A DNA stretch of 64,000 bases from Pedobacter indicus. Lineage in GTDB: Bacteria; Bacteroidota; Bacteroidia; Sphingobacteriales; Sphingobacteriaceae. Below, piece after piece: positions 41,750 to 51,065 of this stretch (positions are counted from its first letter, which is position 1; each line of letters opens with the position of its first letter). Location: the NCBI RefSeq assembly GCF_003449035.1, contig NZ_QRGB01000001.1, positions 744,001-808,000 of the forward strand, given 5' to 3'. The position numbers and the translations under genes were made by a program. Under the pieces are notes generated by a model. It was not told the DNA's origin, did not search any database, and worked only from the letters and a program-made list of their open reading frames with translations.

Positions 41750-42625
41750 GTGAAAGATTTTTTACAGGATTTTAAAAAGCTGGTTAAGCTTCGGCTGACG
41801 TTAACCGTCGTATTCTCTGCTTCCGTAGCTTTCTTGATAGGTAGTAAGGTTCAGGGTGACATTAATTGGTTCAATTGGGTGATTTTAACTATTAGCGGTT
41901 TTCTGGTGACTGGTTCTGCCAACGGGTTTAATGAGATTATAGAGCGTGATCTGGACAAACTCATGTCCCGAACGGCAGATAGACCGCTTCCATCAGGAAG
42001 AATGAATACGGGTCAAGCATTAATCTTGAGCTTGTTTATGGGGCTAATAGGGACAATACTCTTGTTCCGGTTGAATTTGTTAACCGGAGCATTGTCAGTT
42101 TTTTCAATCATTCTCTATGCCTTTGTATATACACCAATTAAGCAGATATCACCTATAGCAGTTTTTGTTGGAGCATTTCCAGGGGCTCTGCCTCCGTTAA
42201 TCGGTTATTTTGCCGCGTTTGACGAGCCGATGATATCGTGGATACCCATCATTCTGTTTACCATACAGTTTGTATGGCAATTTCCCCATTTTTGGTCAAT
42301 TGCATGGGTGTTAGACGAGGATTATAAGCGTGCAGGATTCAGGCTGCTGCCTACTTGCAAGAAAGACAAGGTGAGCGCATTTATGGTGATATTTTCGTCA
42401 ATGTTGTTAATACCTGTAGGGTTACTACCAACACTAATGGGCTTTGGAGGCTATGTGGTCGGTGCTTTGTCAACATTAGGAGGGCTCGTGTTTGTTTGGT
42501 ATTCTTGGTCCCTTTACAAGAAACTGGATACCGCATCAGCGAAAAAAGTGATGTTCACATCCTTTCTTTATTTACCAGTTGTACAGTTAACTTTGTTGTT
42601 TGATTTTATACCAATATCGATATGA
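41750..42625 (+). CDS. ctaB: Heme O synthase (protoheme IX farnesyltransferase)
   Basis: 291 residues, starting at GTG (41750), 7 nt after ctaA. A UbiA-superfamily enzyme with the first Asp-rich motif in SANGFNEIIERDLDKLMSRT and the heme-specific TADRPLPSGRM segment. The second conserved region is WQFPHFWSIAWVLDEDYKRA. It attaches a farnesyl group to heme b, giving heme O for CtaA. The stop overlaps the following subunit III gene (ATGA). Confidence 0.94.
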   Translation: MKDFLQDFKKLVKLRLTLTVVFSASVAFLIGSKVQGDINWFNWVILTISGFLVTGSANGFNEIIERDLDKLMSRTADRPLPSGRMNTGQALILSLFMGLIGTILLFRLNLLTGALSVFSIILYAFVYTPIKQISPIAVFVGAFPGALPPLIGYFAAFDEPMISWIPIILFTIQFVWQFPHFWSIAWVLDEDYKRAGFRLLPTCKKDKVSAFMVIFSSMLLIPVGLLPTLMGFGGYVVGALSTLGGLVFVWYSWSLYKKLDTASAKKVMFTSFLYLPVVQLTLLFDFIPISI

Positions 42626-43209
42626 GCACGAAGGATTTAACAAAGGAACAGAGCTCTTTAGCAGTATTTAGAGCTAAAAAATTTGCATTATGGCTTTTTA
42701 TTATTGCCTCTATTATGATTTTTGCTTCCTTGAGCAGCGGGTACATTGTTTATACGGCAAACGGAGTTGACAAAGGAATCAAAATCATCTTGCCAAAAGC
42801 CTTTATATGGAGTACTATTTTCATTGTGCTGAGTAGTATCACAGTTCACATGGCATATTTAGCAACAAAGAAGGAGCTAACTGCTAAACGGCGCTTATAT
42901 TTACTAATATCGATTGCGCTAGGAACGGCTTTTTTTGTATCTCAATTTAATGCTTGGAAAGTTCTGGTAGAACAAGGCGCTTACTTTATTAATAATAATG
43001 CCTCTCAATCGTTCATTTATGTTTTTACGGGCTTTCACTTAGCACATATTTTGGGTGGAGTTATTGTTCTGTTGGTTGCGTTTTTTAGAAAAACTGAGCG
43101 CTATACGTCAGCACAGAATATAGCGAGCACAGAGTTGGGTGCCATGTTCTGGCATTTTCTAGATATATTATGGATATATATATATGTTTTCTTACTTTTG
43201 AACCAATAA
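42622..43209 (+). CDS. Heme-copper oxidase subunit III-like protein (first of two)
   Basis: 195 residues with five predicted helices. Subunit III features are the helix with FVSQFNAWKVLVEQGAYF and the late FTGFHLAHILGGVIVL with a conserved His, plus AMFWHFLDILWIYIYVFL at the end. The family stabilises the active site of subunit I. It overlaps ctaB by 4 nt. A second, longer subunit III gene follows 10 nt later; this shorter copy may pair with it. Confidence 0.9.
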   Translation: MSTKDLTKEQSSLAVFRAKKFALWLFIIASIMIFASLSSGYIVYTANGVDKGIKIILPKAFIWSTIFIVLSSITVHMAYLATKKELTAKRRLYLLISIALGTAFFVSQFNAWKVLVEQGAYFINNNASQSFIYVFTGFHLAHILGGVIVLLVAFFRKTERYTSAQNIASTELGAMFWHFLDILWIYIYVFLLLNQ

Positions 43210-43219
43210 AATTTTTATA

Positions 43220-43912
43220 ATGAGCACAACTGTATCAAAATTAGATGAAGTAAAGACTGGCAAATGGTCAGGTGGAACCTCACCTTTAAAGGCTGAATAT
43301 GGTAAAGTCATGATGTGGCTGTTTCTGCTTTCAGACGCATTCACATTTACGGGTTTCCTTACCATATATGGTGCGCAGAGAATGTATATGCAAGATACAT
43401 GGCCTAATCCAGATATAATTTTTCAATCCATCCCCTTTATAACCGATACAGGGGCACCGTTGGTATTTGTTGGAATCATGACATTCATCTTGATTGTGAG
43501 CTCTGTAACTATGGTATTAGCCGTTGAAGCGGGTCATCGTCATTCTAAGAAGGAAGTTGTCATATGGATGATTTTAACAATTGTCGGAGGTCTGACATTC
43601 TTGGGTTGTCAAGCATTAGAGTGGAGTCACTTGAGCCATCAGGGTTTTTGGTTTGGAGCCATCCCTGAGTCTATACCTCTAGCTGAACAACAAGGCGCTA
43701 CTCAGTTCTCGAGCTTCTTTTTCGCGATAACAGGGTTTCACGGTTTCCACGTGACGGTTGGTATTACTTTGAATATCATTATCCTTTTAATGACACTCGC
43801 GAATGTGTTCGAAAGAAGGGGGACCTATCTGATGATCGAGAAAGTTGGTTTATACTGGCACTTTGTTGATTTGGTGTGGGTGTTTGTGTTTACGTTCTTC
43901 TATTTGGTTTAA
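43220..43912 (+). CDS. coxC: Cytochrome c oxidase subunit III (second of two)
   Basis: 230 residues. It begins with a cytoplasmic stretch and KVMMWLFLLSDAFTFTGFLT, the typical helix-1 motif of subunit III, then LGCQALEWSHLSHQGFWFG, FAITGFHGFHVTVGITLN and GLYWHFVDLVWVFVFTFFYL. These match CoxC proteins more fully than the copy upstream. Part of the membrane core of the oxidase. Confidence 0.93.
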   Translation: MSTTVSKLDEVKTGKWSGGTSPLKAEYGKVMMWLFLLSDAFTFTGFLTIYGAQRMYMQDTWPNPDIIFQSIPFITDTGAPLVFVGIMTFILIVSSVTMVLAVEAGHRHSKKEVVIWMILTIVGGLTFLGCQALEWSHLSHQGFWFGAIPESIPLAEQQGATQFSSFFFAITGFHGFHVTVGITLNIIILLMTLANVFERRGTYLMIEKVGLYWHFVDLVWVFVFTFFYLV

Positions 43913-43932
43913 AAATTTTAAAATTACAGATC

Positions 43933-44286
43933 ATGTCTACTGAAAATACTACTACTCAGAATACATACGAACATCATGAGCCGGATATGACCAAAGGTCG
44001 TATTTGGAAGGTATTCTTTTATTTATTGGGACTTACCGCTTTAGAATTTATTATTGCCTTGGGTTTTGTAGAAACCGGTTTGATTGAAAAAGGTTTTGCT
44101 GTAATTGCAGCCTATATTATTTTAACAATATTGAAGGCCTTCTACATCGTTGCATATTTCATGCACCTTAAATTTGAGAATAAAGCGTTTAAACTTATAT
44201 TAGGTATCCCTCTTTTCCTATTGATCTATTTTATTGTCCTTGTTCTCATTGAAGGAGATTATCTTGGCCTTTATATCTACAAATAA
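43933..44286 (+). CDS. coxD: Cytochrome c oxidase subunit IV (prokaryotic, CoxD/CyoD-like)
   Basis: 117 residues from the ATG at 43933 (STENTTTQNTYEHHEPDMTK). Three membrane helices, with KAFYIVAYFMHLKFENKAF as the signature of bacterial subunit IV. A small structural subunit of the oxidase. In-frame starts further upstream lie inside coxC and are rejected. Confidence 0.92.
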   Translation: MSTENTTTQNTYEHHEPDMTKGRIWKVFFYLLGLTALEFIIALGFVETGLIEKGFAVIAAYIILTILKAFYIVAYFMHLKFENKAFKLILGIPLFLLIYFIVLVLIEGDYLGLYIYK

Positions 44287-44311
44287 GAGGCGTACAGCTT
44301 AATAAGCATTC

Positions 44312-44974
44312 ATGACTGAAAAGAATAAGAAATATTCTTTAGGTAAAATTGTAACCCTGGTATTGATTTTATTAATACCAGGGTTATTGCATTTTTATTT
44401 AAGACAAACTGGCCAGAACATCTATCAAGAGCTCCCACATTTAGGCTCTCCGAATACCGATACTACCCAGGTTAAGCCTTTTCAGCTTATTAATCAGGAC
44501 AGCGAGGTTGTTAACTTTCCTGAACGAGAAAGCATTACCGTTGTCCAATTTATGCATAGTGATTGTCAACAGTTTGGAGACTATATGAGTCTCTCAATGG
44601 CTCGTGTAGCAAAGAAATTTGGAGAGCATCCCAATGTGCATCTTTACAGTATCTCTCTTGACTCTAACGACACGCCGGCTGTGCTAAAAGAAATGGCGCT
44701 ACATTATGGCGCGGCGGGTACTAATTGGCAGTTTCTCACCGGTAGTGAAGAAGAGACTTCCCGAATTGCACAACAGGAATTTTGGGTTGATGGGTTTAGA
44801 ACTTCACAAGGTAACAATCGTATTATACATAGTCCGTTCTTTATATTATTGGATTCAAAACAGCGTATTAGAGGTTACTACGAGTTTTTCACGAAAGATG
44901 AGGTTGATCGTTTGATCGGTGAAATGATTTTACTAGTAACCGAATTATCCCGAGAAAATAAGGTAGATTTGTAA
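44312..44974 (+). CDS. SCO1/SenC-like protein with an incomplete copper-binding CxxxC motif
   Basis: 220 residues. An N-terminal membrane anchor (GKIVTLVLILLIPGLLHFYL) is followed by a thioredoxin-fold domain of the SCO family. The canonical CxxxC copper/redox motif reads C85-Q-Q-F-G89, so the second Cys is missing. The conserved C-terminal His is present (H173 in IIHSPFFILLD). Normal SCO proteins deliver copper to the CuA site of CoxB, so this copy cannot use the usual two Cys plus His site. It lies 25 nt after coxD and 1 nt before the DUF420 gene, clearly within the oxidase operon. Other SCO proteins may be encoded elsewhere. Confidence 0.85.
   Translation: MTEKNKKYSLGKIVTLVLILLIPGLLHFYLRQTGQNIYQELPHLGSPNTDTTQVKPFQLINQDSEVVNFPERESITVVQFMHSDCQQFGDYMSLSMARVAKKFGEHPNVHLYSISLDSNDTPAVLKEMALHYGAAGTNWQFLTGSEEETSRIAQQEFWVDGFRTSQGNNRIIHSPFFILLDSKQRIRGYYEFFTKDEVDRLIGEMILLVTELSRENKVDL
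44352..44386 (+). other. Perfect 13-bp hairpin inside the SCO-like gene
   Basis: TAACCCTGGTATT (44352-44364) pairs without mismatch with 44374-44386; the loop is 9 nt and the 3' side is T-rich (TTGCATTTTTATTT). It falls in the codons of the membrane anchor, 66 nt after the coxD stop. It may act as a partial terminator or stability element between the oxidase structural genes and the assembly genes. Confidence 0.7.
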
Positions 44975-44975
44975 A

Positions 44976-45515
44976 ATGAACGATAAAGCAATATTTAGAT
45001 TAGTCGGTGTAGTCTCAATAATCGTTTTATTGGTTGTTATCCTCCTGCAGGCCAATGTTGTGAATTTATTCCCCAATCATGATGTTTTGCCCAAATGGGT
45101 TCAATTTCTGCCTACGCTGAATGCTATAATCAACGGCACCTGCACCATTTTGCTGTTAATATCTTACTATTTTATTAGGCGAAAAAACATACGGATGCAT
45201 AAAACGTTAAATATAACAACGTTCATCCTATCCTGTCTGTTTATGGTTTCTTATTTGATTTTTCATTCAGCAGGTATGGAAACCAAATTTGGAGGCCAAG
45301 GCACAATTCGCTATGTGTATTTTTTTATTCTAATCACGCACATCATTCTGGCAGCTATTGTACTTCCCTTAGTTTTGTTAAGTTTCTACCGAGGTATGAT
45401 GATGCAGGTTGAAAAACATAAAAAGCTTGTTAGGTGGAGTTTCCCCATATGGTTATACGTCACAATTAGTGGAGTTTTAGTATATTTGATGATATCTCCT
45501 TATTATTCATTTTAA
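44976..45515 (+). CDS. DUF420-family membrane protein
   Basis: 179 residues with five predicted membrane helices (for example IFRLVGVVSIIVLLVVILLQ and FFILITHIILAAIVLPLVLL). The conserved His residues of DUF420 are seen in FLPTLNAIINGTC (Asn/His site), IRMHKTLNI, LIFHSAGMET and ITHIILA. The family includes CtaM/YozB-type oxidase maturation proteins of Firmicutes, which help maturation of heme A oxidases. Its position, 1 nt after the SCO-like gene, fits such a role. Confidence 0.85.
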   Translation: MNDKAIFRLVGVVSIIVLLVVILLQANVVNLFPNHDVLPKWVQFLPTLNAIINGTCTILLLISYYFIRRKNIRMHKTLNITTFILSCLFMVSYLIFHSAGMETKFGGQGTIRYVYFFILITHIILAAIVLPLVLLSFYRGMMMQVEKHKKLVRWSFPIWLYVTISGVLVYLMISPYYSF

Positions 45516-45537
45516 AGGAGTTTTTGTTTAAAGTAAA

Positions 45538-45810
45538 ATGAAAAAGTCAGTTCAAAAAATCGCAGCAGTATTTATGTTGGCAATTGCATTAGCTAGCTAC
45601 CCTTTATCGGGTGCCCAAGCTCAGTGTGCTATGTGTTCGTTAACGGCTGACAGTTCTGTGAAAAATGGTAATACCCAAGGTGATAATTTAAACAAAGGAA
45701 TTCTTTTTCTTCTTGCAATGCCCTATGCTGCAGCTGGTTTAGTGGGATATCTATGGTATAGGAAGTATCGTAAGAAACAAGAAGCAGAGGCTCCCAATCC
45801 CTTTTCGTAA
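45538..45810 (+). CDS. Small exported membrane protein with a CxxC motif
   Basis: 90 residues. A signal peptide (VFMLAIALASYPLSGAQA) is followed directly by QCAMCSLTADSS, a CxxC motif at the predicted mature N-terminus, then one membrane helix (GILFLLAMPYAAAGLVGYL) and a basic tail. The CxxC would face the periplasm and could bind copper or take part in thiol exchange. Given the incomplete SCO motif two genes upstream, a role in oxidase metal delivery is attractive but purely inferred. No family name is recognised. Confidence 0.8.
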   Translation: MKKSVQKIAAVFMLAIALASYPLSGAQAQCAMCSLTADSSVKNGNTQGDNLNKGILFLLAMPYAAAGLVGYLWYRKYRKKQEAEAPNPFS

Positions 45811-45821
45811 ATCTTCATACG

Positions 45822-46208
45822 GTGGCAGCTAGAGGGTTACTAAGCGCTATGGTATCATGTCGGTGCCCCCGTTGCCGAATCGGTAAGGTATTCTATGGAA
45901 ATCCTTATTCCTTTAAACGGCAGCGAAGCAATCAAGTATGCGCACACTGTGGTCTTTACTTTGAAATTGAACCTGGTTATTTTTATATATCAATGTACAT
46001 CAGTTACGCGTTTGCTGTTTTTGAGGCACTTTTAACCGCGTTTCTTCTTTTCTCAATCACTCATAGTGAGTCACCTTGGTTATATGGTTTTTTTATAATC
46101 TTTGTTATTATTTTCATGGCTCCCGTCAACTACCGCTATTCAAGAATAACATTACTGTATACTACTCGAAAGATTCGATATAACAGTCGTTATGATAACG
46201 ACCACTAA
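45822..46208 (+). CDS. DUF983 family protein (zinc ribbon plus two membrane helices)
   Basis: 128 residues, GTG start at 45822. An N-terminal zinc ribbon (CRCPRCRIGK and CAHCGLYFEIEPGYF) precedes two membrane helices. DUF983 proteins often follow cox genes in many bacteria; function unknown. Last gene of the respiratory cluster. Its stop codon overlaps that of the convergent DUF4286 gene. Confidence 0.85.
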   Translation: MAARGLLSAMVSCRCPRCRIGKVFYGNPYSFKRQRSNQVCAHCGLYFEIEPGYFYISMYISYAFAVFEALLTAFLLFSITHSESPWLYGFFIIFVIIFMAPVNYRYSRITLLYTTRKIRYNSRYDNDH

Positions 46209-46513
46209 TGAAACGCGATGTATTTCATCTTACTCTCAAACATATAGAGTTGACCTTCCCAATGTTGCGCCATTTTCTCTTGGATAAGTTTAAAGAGACT
46301 CGATTTAAAAGTCTCGATTCCTTGATCGCTTGCACTCATCATTTGTAAGCTGTACGTTGTACCTTCATTTGGAGAGTCCAACACTTTTAAGAACGACTGA
46401 CCCTTAAAGATTCCTTCATTTGCCACTTTAGGTAAAAAGTCATATTGAATCCAAGCGGCAAATTCAGCATCAATGTCCTCGTTTACAAGGAAGGTTATAT
46501 TGTATAATATCAT
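46205..46513 (-). CDS. DUF4286 family protein
   Basis: 102 residues from the ATG at 46513: MILYNITFLVNEDIDAEFAA matches the start of DUF4286 proteins, small cytoplasmic alpha/beta proteins found in Bacteroidota. No function is known. An upstream extension of 12 codons is possible but begins before the conserved region. A TATCTTCG element (one mismatch to TAnnTTTG) sits 4 nt before this ATG. Confidence 0.8.
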   Translation of the reverse strand: MILYNITFLVNEDIDAEFAAWIQYDFLPKVANEGIFKGQSFLKVLDSPNEGTTYSLQMMSASDQGIETFKSSLFKLIQEKMAQHWEGQLYMFESKMKYIAFH

Positions 46514-46689
46514 GCTGCGAAGATAGGGGATATGACCCGTTAAAACCAAAAAGCTGTATTTTAAATGTTACTCACCGATATTTCAAATCAAAGCTATTTT
46601 TTCCTAAATTCACCTAGGCATCTAGTGGAGCTCAATTGGTATATTATGTCAAAGACAATACATGGTTGCATAGTCGACGGAGGAACTAT

Positions 46690-48576
46690 ATGATTAGAAA
46701 TTTACTTCAACAACTGTATGTTTTTGCTTTTGCTCTGTTAGCCTTTTCGTGTGGCCAAAATCAAACAGATCATCCCAAAGCGGATTTATTTTTCCATACA
46801 GCGGAGAAAAATCATTTTAGGATTTCTCCAAGTGGAACTCACATTTCGTATTTACAAGATTACGAAGGATTCAAGACTATTTTTATTTTAGATATCGCCT
46901 CAGGGAACACGCGTACCGTGCCGACGGGGCATGATGTTGAGTCTGCCTTTTGGGCAAATGACGACGAGTTGATTTTTCTTTTAAAAAGGAATCCAGGAGA
47001 CAGTCTTCGACTGATGTCAGTTAATCGTGATGCGTTAGATATCCGATCCATTCTTCCCGCAACCAACGCACACCTGCGCTGGATAGCACCTATTCAGGTA
47101 AAGAATAATGAAATATTAATATCACTCAACGATCGGGATTCATCCGTTTTTGACGTATACAGGCTGAATATTCTCACCGGCAGTCGGGATTTGATAGCAA
47201 AGAATCCTGGTAATATTGTCCGCTGGCTTACCGACGTTGAAGGCTCACTAAGAGTCGCCGTGGTATCTAATGGTCTTCAGGAAACCATTCTGGCCAGAGA
47301 AAATGAAGTTGAAGATTTTCATCAAGTAATTAACACGCGTTATAAGACACGAATCATACCATTAGGTTTTACGAAGCACGACCGAAACACAATTTATGCG
47401 CTCTCAAACCAAAATCGGGATAAATTAGCCCTTGTTGAGTTCAATTTGCTTACGGGAAAAGAAATGGGAGTTATTTATCAGAATCCTAAGTACGATTTGA
47501 GCACGCAAGGTTATTTAAAACAAACAGGGGAGATGGGGTTTGCAGAATACAATGGAACGCGAGCAGAGCGGCATTTTATTGATCTTCAATTAAAGAAAGT
47601 TTTTCAAAAGCTCAGTTCTCATATACCCGATTACTCCCTTGAGATTGTTGCTCGGGATAGTACCTTCACAAACTTTCTGATAAAAACCGAACAGGACGTC
47701 GACCCCGGGGCAACGTATTATTATAATTACAAAACGGACGAGCTGATCTTGCTTGCAGAAGAGAGTCCGGGACTTGATACCAGTTTGCTATCGCCCATGA
47801 AAACAGTAAATTTTAAAGCCCGTGACGGTTTTGAATTACAAGGTTACCTTACAGTTCCAAAAACATCGGAAAGTAACTTGCCCACCATTATAATACCTCC
47901 TTCTGATATCAATTCACGGGCCGTGTGGGGGTATAACCCAGAAGTTCAGTTTTTAGTTTCCAGAGGCTATGCTGTGTTTCAGGTTAATACACGTGGTTTA
48001 CAAGGGTACGGGAAACAATATTGGATCGACGGATTCAAGAAATGGGGGACAACCATGCAGGAAGATATTACCGATGCTACACAGTGGTTAATTCAAGAAG
48101 GTATCGCTGATTCTACTCGTGTTGGAATCTATGGTTTTAACCTTGGCGGTTATTCCGCATTGCATAGTGCTTGTTATCAACCCGATCTGTACGCCTGTGC
48201 GGCATCCTATTCAGGAATAACAAATTTATTTACCTATCTAAAAGAAATACCACCTTACTTTAAGCTTTATAGGCAAATGTTTTACGAGATGGTTGGCAAC
48301 CCAGCAATAGAAAGTGATTATTTTCGGAAGCACTCACCAATTTTTCACGCAGCGAAAATAAAAAATCCTGTATTTATTGCACATGGTGGAAAGGACAGCC
48401 GTGTCAATGTCACCGAAGCAAATCAATTTGTCAAAGATCTACGTAACCGCGAAGTCCCGGTTGAATATATTCTTGAGCCAAATGAGGGTCGGAAGTTTAC
48501 GACAACCGAACAGAAGATTGATTTATATAATCAATTAGCAGATTTCTTTGATAGTTATCTCCTAAAAAGGCGTTAA
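46690..48576 (+). CDS. Lipoprotein with prolyl-oligopeptidase (S9) fold but no catalytic Ser or His: putative pseudoenzyme
   Basis: 628 residues from the ATG at 46690, which has a GGAGG-like site upstream and opens a lipoprotein signal (FAFALLAFSC, Cys about residue 21). Residues 30 to about 370 form an N-terminal beta-propeller (blades such as ISPSGTHISYLQDY). Residues about 390-625 are an alpha/beta-hydrolase domain: AVFQVNTRGLQGYGKQYW, then VGIYGFNLGGYSALHS. The nucleophile elbow is G-F-N484-L-G instead of GxSxG. Asp569 is kept (HGGKDSRV), but the His position reads NEGRKF with Arg601 instead of the usual EGHxF. The chain is otherwise intact. It should bind peptides or proteins without cleaving them. 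It is followed 6 nt later by a histidine kinase gene, suggesting a sensing role. Confidence 0.88.
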   Translation: MIRNLLQQLYVFAFALLAFSCGQNQTDHPKADLFFHTAEKNHFRISPSGTHISYLQDYEGFKTIFILDIASGNTRTVPTGHDVESAFWANDDELIFLLKRNPGDSLRLMSVNRDALDIRSILPATNAHLRWIAPIQVKNNEILISLNDRDSSVFDVYRLNILTGSRDLIAKNPGNIVRWLTDVEGSLRVAVVSNGLQETILARENEVEDFHQVINTRYKTRIIPLGFTKHDRNTIYALSNQNRDKLALVEFNLLTGKEMGVIYQNPKYDLSTQGYLKQTGEMGFAEYNGTRAERHFIDLQLKKVFQKLSSHIPDYSLEIVARDSTFTNFLIKTEQDVDPGATYYYNYKTDELILLAEESPGLDTSLLSPMKTVNFKARDGFELQGYLTVPKTSESNLPTIIIPPSDINSRAVWGYNPEVQFLVSRGYAVFQVNTRGLQGYGKQYWIDGFKKWGTTMQEDITDATQWLIQEGIADSTRVGIYGFNLGGYSALHSACYQPDLYACAASYSGITNLFTYLKEIPPYFKLYRQMFYEMVGNPAIESDYFRKHSPIFHAAKIKNPVFIAHGGKDSRVNVTEANQFVKDLRNREVPVEYILEPNEGRKFTTTEQKIDLYNQLADFFDSYLLKRR

Positions 48577-48582
48577 TATGTA

Positions 48583-50283
48583 ATGATGAAACCTCAAAAA
48601 GCGATCAATAATAAAAATGGTCTTCTTATCATTACTTTTTTGGTATTGATTACCCTCACCTATGTTATAGCTTTGATACTTGGGTATAGCTTTACAAGAA
48701 ACTATGTAGAAAATAATTTCAATACTGTAAAAGTAGAAGTGTTTGATCAAAGTTTGAGTTCTTACAATGATTTTTTTCAGAACCGTATTGGTGAAGTGTC
48801 CTACTACCAAGGTTACCTTGATTCTGCGAGTGCCAGAAGATACGCTGATTCGGTACTATCTAACTATCCGATAGTCGAACGGATACTATTTGCTGACGTG
48901 CAAATAAGTAATTACTATTTAAACCATGGCTTTTCGATCCATCAAATGTATCTTTCCCCTAAGGCCATCTACCAATTCGGCGATGATGTACATCCCGACT
49001 CAGTTGTTTATTACAAAGCGGGGGTTGACCCCAATCTGAGCCTGACGAAGTCAGACGAGTTTAATACAATGGCGGTTAAATTCGCATCCTTTATTGAATC
49101 TGCAGACTCAGCGAAAGTCTTAAGCGGAGCAGATATCTTCAACTCTTTTTATGCTGTTAATTCGGCTAAGGTTTCATATATGACCATTCCACGCAGAGAT
49201 GAGATTAGGGTATTCCAACAGTTTATGGCGGGACAGGTACAAGACTCCTCTGTCTATGAATTTGACATCATGACTTTCTACCTCAATCCGAGAAACCTGG
49301 ATATACAGAATGTCCATCCTGAGCTTTATCAGGATATCTCCATCCAGCCCTTATTCTTCGACTCCTATGAGGCTGATCCCTCTGTAATTGTAACACAAAT
49401 GCCGCTTTCCGGAGCGCTTTCAGATTATAAACTATATTTTCGTTCGTCGCGCACATTCCTCAAGAAAGAGATTAACAATCTTTTTACCCCAATAGGAATT
49501 GCCATTTCTGCGATTTATTTATTCCTCTTACTGATTGGCTATTTAATCTATAAAAACCTGAAGATTAATTTTCGTATGTTTAAATTGCAATATGATTTTG
49601 TCAACAACCTATCTCACGAGTTCAAGACCCCAGTAAGTGTGATCAAAATTGCTGGCAGTAATATTCGGAACGGAAAGACCCTTACCGATGTTGAGCGCAA
49701 TTATTACGGTAAAATACTCGACGAGGAATCAGATAAATTAAACAACCTACTCAATACACTGCTCTCTTTTACCCAATTAGAGAATAAAGTGTTTAAACTC
49801 AAGAAGAAAAAAGTTGACCTCGATGATTTTTGCAGTAATATGGTAAACAGCTATCAGGTAAAGCATCCTGATTTTGATATTCAATACCATATACAGGGCG
49901 TTGAGGTCATTGAAACAGATGAGACGCTATTGATCAGCCTTTTCCAAAATTTGATAGACAATGCTTATAAATACTCGTCGTTTGATAAAAAATACTTGAG
50001 AATCAATATTTCTAAGCAAAAGAGAGAAATCTTTTTTAAATTTGAGGATAGGGGTATCGGTATACCCAAAGATGAGCAAAAGAATATCTTTAAGAAATTT
50101 TACCGAATACAATCCCAATACAATCAACAGGGTAGCGTTGGTTTGGGGCTCGCTTTTTGTAAGGAGGTAGTTAACTTAATGAATGGCGAGATCTTTGTAG
50201 AGAGTAAGAAAGGAAAAGGGTCGGTCTTTACAATCATTTTACCAGCTGAATTGAATCAGGTAAAGAAGGTTCTCATATCATAA
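48583..50283 (+). CDS. Sensor histidine kinase with large extracytoplasmic domain
   Basis: 566 residues. Two membrane helices (about residues 14-36, LLIITFLVLITLTYVIALIL, and about 300-328, IGIAISAIYLFLLLIGYLIY) enclose a periplasmic domain of about 260 residues with no recognised fold. The cytoplasmic part has HisKA with H345 in NNLSHEFKTPVSVI, and a HATPase domain with NLIDNAYKYS, FEDRGIGIPKDEQ and GSVGLGLAFCKEVV. It autophosphorylates and passes phosphate to the regulator that starts on the next base. Operon position suggests that its input may involve the S9-like lipoprotein. Confidence 0.93.
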   Translation: MMKPQKAINNKNGLLIITFLVLITLTYVIALILGYSFTRNYVENNFNTVKVEVFDQSLSSYNDFFQNRIGEVSYYQGYLDSASARRYADSVLSNYPIVERILFADVQISNYYLNHGFSIHQMYLSPKAIYQFGDDVHPDSVVYYKAGVDPNLSLTKSDEFNTMAVKFASFIESADSAKVLSGADIFNSFYAVNSAKVSYMTIPRRDEIRVFQQFMAGQVQDSSVYEFDIMTFYLNPRNLDIQNVHPELYQDISIQPLFFDSYEADPSVIVTQMPLSGALSDYKLYFRSSRTFLKKEINNLFTPIGIAISAIYLFLLLIGYLIYKNLKINFRMFKLQYDFVNNLSHEFKTPVSVIKIAGSNIRNGKTLTDVERNYYGKILDEESDKLNNLLNTLLSFTQLENKVFKLKKKKVDLDDFCSNMVNSYQVKHPDFDIQYHIQGVEVIETDETLLISLFQNLIDNAYKYSSFDKKYLRINISKQKREIFFKFEDRGIGIPKDEQKNIFKKFYRIQSQYNQQGSVGLGLAFCKEVVNLMNGEIFVESKKGKGSVFTIILPAELNQVKKVLIS

Positions 50284-50985
50284 ATGAATACTATGCACAC
50301 AAATATTAAAATCGCAGTAATAGAAGATGATGACAACTTAAGGTTTTTAGTTGTTCATCGGTTAGAAGCAGAACAATTTCAAGTAATCCAAGCTGATAAC
50401 GGAGTAGACGGTGAAGAGCTGATACTGCGTGAAAAGCCAGACATCGTGCTTTTAGATTGGATGTTACCTAAACGACCTGGATCCGAAGTTTGTGAAAATG
50501 TTCGTGATAAAGGCTTCACGAATCTCATTATTATGATGACTGCCAAGTCACAAGATTTAGATAAGATCGACGCCTATAGCTTTGGAGTATCTGACTATAT
50601 CACCAAACCGTTTAATATGGACGTACTGGTTGCTATGATCGAAAACAAGGTCAAATATTTCGTTAGCCAGCCCGTAGAAAACTTTACTTTTGGTGATACC
50701 GAACACCACCCTTCTATTCATACATTGATACGCGATGGGAAAAGAATTGAGCTCACCATTTTAGAAAACAGGATCCTTCTTTATTTTCTTCAAAATATCG
50801 GCAGAGTCATTAGTCGAGACGAGCTGATGGAAGTCGTATGGGGCTACAGTTCAAATGTGAATACCCGTACACTCGACATGCATATTGTGCGTCTTAGAAA
50901 GAAAATCGAATTGAACCCTGATCGACCTGCCTATCTGATCACAGTTCGAGGAATGGGCTATAAGTTTGTTGAAGATACCGAATAA
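50284..50985 (+). CDS. OmpR-family response regulator
   Basis: 233 residues. The receiver domain has the acidic pair IEDDDN, the phospho-acceptor D58 in IVLLDWMLP, the conserved Thr/Ser in MMTAKSQD and Lys in ITKPFN. The C-terminal winged helix ends NTRTLDMHIVRLRKKI and TVRGMGYKF. It binds DNA on phosphorylation by the adjacent kinase. The target genes are unknown. ATG at 50284 directly follows the kinase stop; an internal start at 50293 is possible. Confidence 0.95.
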   Translation: MNTMHTNIKIAVIEDDDNLRFLVVHRLEAEQFQVIQADNGVDGEELILREKPDIVLLDWMLPKRPGSEVCENVRDKGFTNLIIMMTAKSQDLDKIDAYSFGVSDYITKPFNMDVLVAMIENKVKYFVSQPVENFTFGDTEHHPSIHTLIRDGKRIELTILENRILLYFLQNIGRVISRDELMEVVWGYSSNVNTRTLDMHIVRLRKKIELNPDRPAYLITVRGMGYKFVEDTE

Positions 50986-51026: not shown

Positions 51027-51065
51027 CGGCAAGACCATACACAATATGGTCTTGCCGCTTTTTTT
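51027..51065 (+). terminator. Perfect 13-bp terminator hairpin directly after the greA promoter
   Basis: CGGCAAGACCATA (51027-51039) pairs without mismatch with 51045-51057, loop CACAA, followed by seven T residues (51059-51065). It ends transcription from the two-component operon. Because a promoter lies just upstream, it may also cut short greA transcripts, leaving an RNA of about 40 nt; the greA ATG is at 51089. Confidence 0.92.

Follow-up and report, generated by a model that had tools for sequence, protein, structure and literature searches.

In Pedobacter indicus a lipoprotein with the fold of S9 peptidases is encoded together with a sensor histidine kinase and an OmpR/PhoB-family response regulator, and the reading preferred here, to which we give a probability of about 0.58, is that of an autoregulated two-component system with an accessory lipoprotein, in which the S9 partner would set the activity of the kinase, catalysis would be dispensable and the regulator would bind a repeat in front of the operon. 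The basis of this reading was observed directly and consists of the linkage of the genes, a repeated and ordered loss of active-site residues, a fold that is kept without clear relaxation and a promoter element. These features suggest that the S9 lipoprotein has been kept as a partner of the kinase, its role as an enzyme being no longer needed.

The window, i.e. the whole stretch of DNA analysed, comprises 64,000 nt of P. indicus (NZ_QRGB01000001.1, positions 744,001-808,000), and the features of the locus are listed in Table 1. The stop codon of the S9 gene is separated by 6 nt from the ATG of the kinase, whose TAA directly abuts the ATG of the regulator (0 nt); the coordinates, the gene order, the short gap and the direct junction given in a preliminary description of the region were all confirmed. 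Pfam recognizes HisKA and HATPase_c in the kinase and Response_reg and Trans_reg_C in the regulator, the best score of the latter being to the MtrA model, yet under the cut-off of that model. Terminator-like sites number eight across the window, against 3.6 expected. Upstream of the operon lies a small divergent gene (46205-46513, minus strand) for a protein of about 100 residues (MILYNITFLVNE...), whose cluster is represented in 41 of 53 loci, on the opposite strand and one to three genes upstream of the operon; homologues with 27-29% identity also occur in three of the four loci of the S9-less genus g11 described below. Further upstream (41750-45810), the genes look like a cluster for cytochrome oxidase assembly with protoheme farnesyltransferase-like, two subunit III-like, subunit IV-like and SCO-like products, these names coming from the reading of the sequences.

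Table 1. Coordinates of the operon and its flanking signals in the window
Feature	Position	Strand	Description
S9-fold (propeller + alpha/beta-hydrolase) lipoprotein gene	46690-48576	+	628 aa; Pfam, alignment, model
Sensor histidine kinase gene	48583-50283	+	~270-residue periplasmic domain, residues ~36-305
OmpR/PhoB-family response regulator gene	50284-50985	+	receiver + winged helix
Promoter element CTGTATTTTAAATGTTAC	46554-46571	+	11-bp-periodic direct repeat, candidate regulator-binding site
Terminator-like hairpin, 3' of the regulator gene and before the next gene	51027-51057	+	13 pairs, T tail

The first product of the operon matches Peptidase_S9 (PF00326) over residues 414-624 (E 1.8e-39; 135.8 bits, cut-off 22.6), and the AlphaFold model of the mature protein has a mean pLDDT of 93.1. 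The solved structures closest to this model are those of acylaminoacyl peptidases (5l8s_A: VIA Z 34.8 over 577 residues, rmsd 4.7); DPP6 and DPP10 are both among the solved structures that match the protein by sequence. The complete prolyl-oligopeptidase architecture claimed in the preliminary description is borne out by domain match, model and fold search alike. Acylaminoacyl peptidases such as 5l8s, 1ve7 and 3o4g, which share this fold with VIA Z values of about 34, retain the Ser/Asp/His triad. In the window protein, the alignment places Asn484 (GFNLGG) at the position of the nucleophile and Arg601 (NEGRKF) at that of the histidine; both the catalytic Ser of the GxSxGG motif and the catalytic His are missing and Asp569 alone remains, as had been described from the sequence. 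The H-G-G motif is missing as well. Cys21, on which the assignment as a lipoprotein is based, is found in every one of the 114 operon copies, and a strict lipobox pattern run on the window protein gave no match.

The distribution of the operon was followed by searching the S9 protein in 100 genomes, including that of the window, and then in 399 genomes of the same family (f1). Regions were fetched around 60 S9 matches, around four S9-less kinases and around 60 further operons, the last hand-picked among the best listed family matches, with distant genera under-sampled. A kinase lies downstream of the S9 gene in 113 of the 120 fetched S9 regions, the other seven holding other S9 homologues. Among the first 60, a same-strand kinase occurs within 200 nt downstream in 53, and the remainder are paralogues, a fragment and distant relatives that fall outside the operon group; in the second 60 the kinase is always present, with a gap of -4 to 43 nt. 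The regulator is third in every kinase-linked region except L080 and L140, whose regions run to the edge of a contig. The search for the same operon in homologues, proposed in the preliminary description, thus found the linkage conserved, and the recurrence of the gene order across genomes argues against a chance arrangement: a lipoprotein is encoded with a kinase and a regulator, and the three stay together, as in accessory-lipoprotein systems. On the S9 tree the operon copies occupy one side of a branch.

At E<=1e-60 an S9 match is found in 387 of the 399 family genomes, some of them possibly a sister paralogue, given that non-operon copies such as L091 also clear this threshold. The ectodomain of the kinase occurs exactly once per genome in 58 of 61 f1 genomes, and the three in which it was missed are 71-76% complete; of the 395 class genomes searched, 15 have it, every one of them in f1. 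A scan of contigs returned two named homologues, neither of them adjoining the kinase. Twelve family genomes have no S9 match. Two of these hold S9 pieces together with the kinase, with pieces and kinase both at contig ends in G532 and a kinase that starts at base 3 of its contig in G641; the complete genome G449 was found to have neither S9 gene nor kinase, neither was seen in the incomplete genomes G009, G010 and G042, and the other six belong to genus g11. Of the genomes that allow a verdict, only g11 and G449 are without the S9 gene. Such a nearly universal presence in the family indicates that the role of the operon is probably not niche-specific.

The g11 genomes (about 1.3-2.0 Mb) carry the kinase and the regulator without the S9 gene, the kinase being found in five of the six examined. 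On the midpoint-rooted kinase tree, g11 adjoins the S9-bearing L080 and L068, and the simplest reading of this position is that g11 lost the S9 gene. The g11 loci (L101-L104) constitute a natural S9 deletion. The persistence of the kinase in this genus counts against a partner role of the lipoprotein, as the kinase can, judging from these loci, do without it.

The catalytic residues were compared among 114 operon copies, all different from one another. At position 484, 76 copies have Gly and 34 have Ser, with two each for Asn and Arg, so that Ser has been lost in 80 copies, and the full Ser/Asp/His triad is found in 34, including that of a relative from the same genus (L041). His is present at 601 in 42 copies and Arg in 32, whereas Asp569 is retained in 113. 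The losses are ordered: all 34 Ser-bearing copies have both Asp and His, only eight of the 80 others keep His, and His is missing only where Ser is missing. Two copies (L144 and L145) have Arg at the nucleophile position and retain Asp and His. These counts do not sustain two ideas raised in the preliminary description. Inactivity is not the defining trait of the system, since intact Ser and His occur in 34 of 114 homologues of the same operon, L041 among them; nor do Asn and Arg form a conserved functional signature, as Gly prevails at 484, only one other copy shares the Asn and Arg601 is limited to 32 copies. The copies that appear catalytically competent also speak against a pure partner role.

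With the three catalytic columns left out of the tree, the Ser state requires at least 13 changes, 11 of which are forced by starred branches, and if neither residue was ever regained Ser was lost 14 times and His 10 times; these counts are approximate, both trees being products of a quick search and carrying SH-aLRT as their sole measure of support. Rows that are fragments or distant were excluded, namely L098-L100 from the smaller tree and L097-L100 from the larger. Half of the decayed copies (40/80) form a single clade in which all have Gly. Outside the operon the picture differs: nine of nine fetched S9 homologues away from the kinase retain Ser/Asp/His, and among other S9 hits from seven genomes the triad was found in 30 of 31 aligned. 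This second sample joins 26 of the 37 non-operon hits of six relatives (E<=1e-25), those for which a locus was listed, to five of the 20 hits in the genome of the window, where eight had a listed locus and the operon's own S9 protein and two weak hits were left out of these; it leans to strong hits, which are likelier to be intact, and its sole exception (L006) is a weak partial match with a poor alignment. Since other S9 homologues keep their triad, the decay of the active site looks tied to the kinase operon and does not appear to be general among the S9 proteins that these bacteria carry. On the more specific proposal that an S9 peptidase became the dedicated envelope co-receptor of one autoregulated kinase through some 11-14 transitions to a pseudoenzyme, in which Ser went first, His second and Asp almost never, and that it is the first S9-fold partner of a kinase known, we regard the odds as even.

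If the decayed copies had become functionless, their hydrolase domain might be expected to have diverged more freely. Measured against its own propeller, it has not: the median ratio of hydrolase to propeller distances is 0.53 among Ser-Ser pairs (n = 318) and 0.54 among both non-Ser (n = 1377) and mixed pairs (n = 929), and by clade it is 0.58 in seven decayed clades (0.42-0.97) and 0.605 in eight Ser clades (0.44-1.18). Relative to the kinase domain the hydrolase ratio is somewhat higher in decayed pairs (median 1.31 vs. 1.09; by clade 1.38 vs. 1.105), and so is that of the ectodomain (2.30 vs. 1.86), while the hydrolase/ectodomain ratio is 0.58 in decayed and Ser pairs alike and, by clade, 0.81 in decayed and 0.64 in Ser clades. 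All pairwise ratios cover only pairs with a kinase distance of 0.03-0.5, and the pairs are not independent. From these sequence comparisons, no clear relaxation of constraint seems to have followed the loss of Ser when the propeller is the reference; with the kinase domain as reference the rate rises slightly, and a mild relaxation may have occurred.

The pattern of conserved columns bears on what the protein was kept for. Of 150 columns that are at least 90% conserved in Ser copies, 101 are equally so in non-Ser copies, and the columns that differ most between the two groups are 484 and 601. Arg571 of the Asp-x-Arg motif, to which we ascribe a role in the pocket, is found in 32 of 34 Ser copies and in 36 of 80 others, and the H-G-G motif in 19 of 34 and 27 of 80, respectively. 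The loss of catalysis and of part of its surroundings, with most other conserved columns staying, appears to fit contact more than chemistry. It is against this background that a ligand receptor of the kind proposed in the preliminary description has to be weighed, a binding protein joined to a kinase, in which the decayed S9 pocket would bind peptides or acylated amino acids and present the bound state to the kinase. The fold, intact in the model, the nearly invariant Asp569 and the 101 columns common to Ser and non-Ser copies would all suit such a receptor; nevertheless it is held to be unlikely, because the surroundings of the active site have been remodelled while most of the rest was kept, which weakens the idea of a conserved peptide receptor, as does the fact that the residues in place of Ser and His differ between clades. 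Of what the preliminary description put forward, the idea that a role other than catalysis has been kept is supported, the binding of peptides is conjectural, and the Asn and the Arg are not conserved.

A less probable account, which we consider doubtful, is that the S9 protein is the output of the system, an ordinary peptidase under the control of the co-encoded two-component pair, in which the loss of Ser reflects drift in the presence of redundant peptidases. The intact triads of 34 copies, the several further S9 proteins of the genomes, an operon whose upstream element fits regulation of its first gene and the somewhat higher hydrolase-to-kinase distance in decayed pairs are in favour of this account; it explains poorly that decayed copies are full length with a hydrolase domain evolving no faster than their own propeller, that the decayed form has persisted throughout the large all-Gly clade and that, of the genomes allowing a verdict, only g11 and G449 lack the gene. 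Finally, a recent decay confined to this genome, the gene being a degenerating and functionless peptidase or pseudogene, would agree with the intact triad of L041 and the loss of the H-G-G motif in the window, but is very improbable in view of the full-length open frame, 56% identity to the same-genus protein over residues 7-624, the identical promoter element and the same gene order in both species and the lack of clear relaxation.

For a partner of the kinase, the periplasmic region of the latter would be the natural counterpart. The preliminary description had called it a large unrecognised domain, which holds for family searches, no Pfam family, CACHE included, matching the ectodomain at E<=0.1, and may no longer hold for its modelled structure. 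The model of the 270 residues has a pLDDT of 89.5 and, although Foldseek returned nothing at E<=0.001 (best 0.036), fold comparison gives a VIA Z of 10.3 to 6iou_A (192 residues, rmsd 4.1). The top fold matches are ligand-binding domains of chemoreceptors and kinases, with 5wbf and 6mni titled double or tandem CACHE; most of the others we assume to be double-CACHE domains too, with a few related folds such as that of the plant cytokinin receptor. Double-CACHE domains combine a long N-terminal helix with two PAS-like subdomains, and on the strength of the model the ectodomain is tentatively taken as a divergent double-CACHE-like fold. A contact surface was sought through the S9-less g11 kinases, in which three of 18 conserved ectodomain columns are released, the control clades giving 0-2 of 18-20, and in which the control L080 cannot serve for the kinase domain, its row being truncated; no such surface emerged.

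The last component is an element of 18 bp located 5' of the S9 gene, which reads CTGTATTTTAAATGTTAC in the window and the sister species and TGTAAAAWTAARGTTGCA in genera g4 and g17. In the former, TGT is repeated at 11 bp, a geometry that presumably corresponds to a PhoB-family site; the second half is GGT in g4 and g17. A general pattern for the element, drawn from part of the same set of regions, matches 88 of 114 upstream regions and leaves 26 unmatched, with none of 114 matching on the opposite strand or after reversal. Allowing at most one mismatch, a single copy per genome was found in 15 of 15 genomes and none in the control; allowing at most two, the genome of the window and that of the sister species (G000 and G001) have one exact copy each, again with none in the control. 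By their coordinates, all 17 genome-wide copies (17/17 genomes) lie just upstream of this operon. A wider regulon was sought at three mismatches in the 15 genomes, and the 404 matches, compared with 362 for the reversed control, represent background only. In the S9-less g11, the element was not found on the operon strand within the 330 bases before the kinase (0/4), and a match occurs on the opposite strand in 4/4, perhaps inside the divergent neighbour gene. The operon of the regulator is thus preceded by a direct repeat with the 11-bp period of PhoB/OmpR-type regulators, and the single-copy repeat suggests autoregulation, the co-encoded regulator being the likely factor that binds it. In the window the element lies between divergent genes and could serve the other one too.

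Brought together, the accessory-lipoprotein reading would run as follows. The S9-fold lipoprotein would be anchored in the envelope, probably facing the periplasm, and would act as the dedicated partner of the double-CACHE-like ectodomain through direct contact; this contact would set the activity of the kinase, upwards or downwards, and the regulator would bind the direct repeat of 11-bp period in front of the S9 gene, with feedback on the operon. The ancestor would have been a working S9 peptidase whose partner role was established first. Once this had happened, catalysis would be dispensable, which would account for the repeated loss of the nucleophile, then of the His and then of part of the pocket, with the fold kept.

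Both halves of this proposal have precedents. In the actinobacterial MtrA-MtrB-LpqB system, the gene of a lipoprotein likewise accompanies those of a kinase and an OmpR-type regulator, and LpqB has a propeller; unlike the Pedobacter protein, however, it is not known to have an alpha/beta-hydrolase domain, and an S9 fold is not known in QseG, the outer-membrane lipoprotein of the QseG-QseE-QseF system. In the latter, whose genes also encode a lipoprotein, a kinase and a regulator, QseG is reported to bind QseE and to activate it (PMC12691602; see also PMC6075780); the corresponding contact is here a proposal. On the side of the peptidases, DPP6 and DPP10 belong to S9, lack peptidase activity and act as partners of Kv4 channels, and the fly orthologue of DPP10 is reported to be an ancillary subunit that is still a peptidase (PMC4873792). 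They resemble the lipoprotein in their S9 fold, in a replaced nucleophile (Asp in DPP6, Gly in DPP10) and in partnering a signalling protein of the membrane, and the fly protein resembles it in the pattern of a partner first and an enzyme later lost. They differ in being animal membrane proteins on ion channels, whereas here a bacterial lipoprotein sits in a histidine-kinase operon and shows many independent losses. Proteolysis of the sensor kinase VgrS is reported to alter its signalling (PMC6237974), a precedent by which intact S9 copies, too, may cleave something. Among the literature matches listed, a scope that leaves most subscription journals outside, no pairing of an S9 protein with a histidine kinase was found; kinase accessory proteins are known, as are S9 pseudoenzymes, and their combination is unseen in the literature listed. 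A two-component system with an accessory lipoprotein seems the most economical account of the three genes, and each half has a precedent (QseG-QseE and DPP6/DPP10).

If this reading is true, the accessory proteins by which histidine kinases are tuned would gain a class derived from enzymes. The family offers about a dozen parallel catalytic losses in orthologues that share one genomic setting, and the intact copies can serve as controls; these losses offer a way to test whether the protein was already a partner before catalysis became free to disappear, and the operon would represent a natural replicate series for enzymes becoming signalling subunits.
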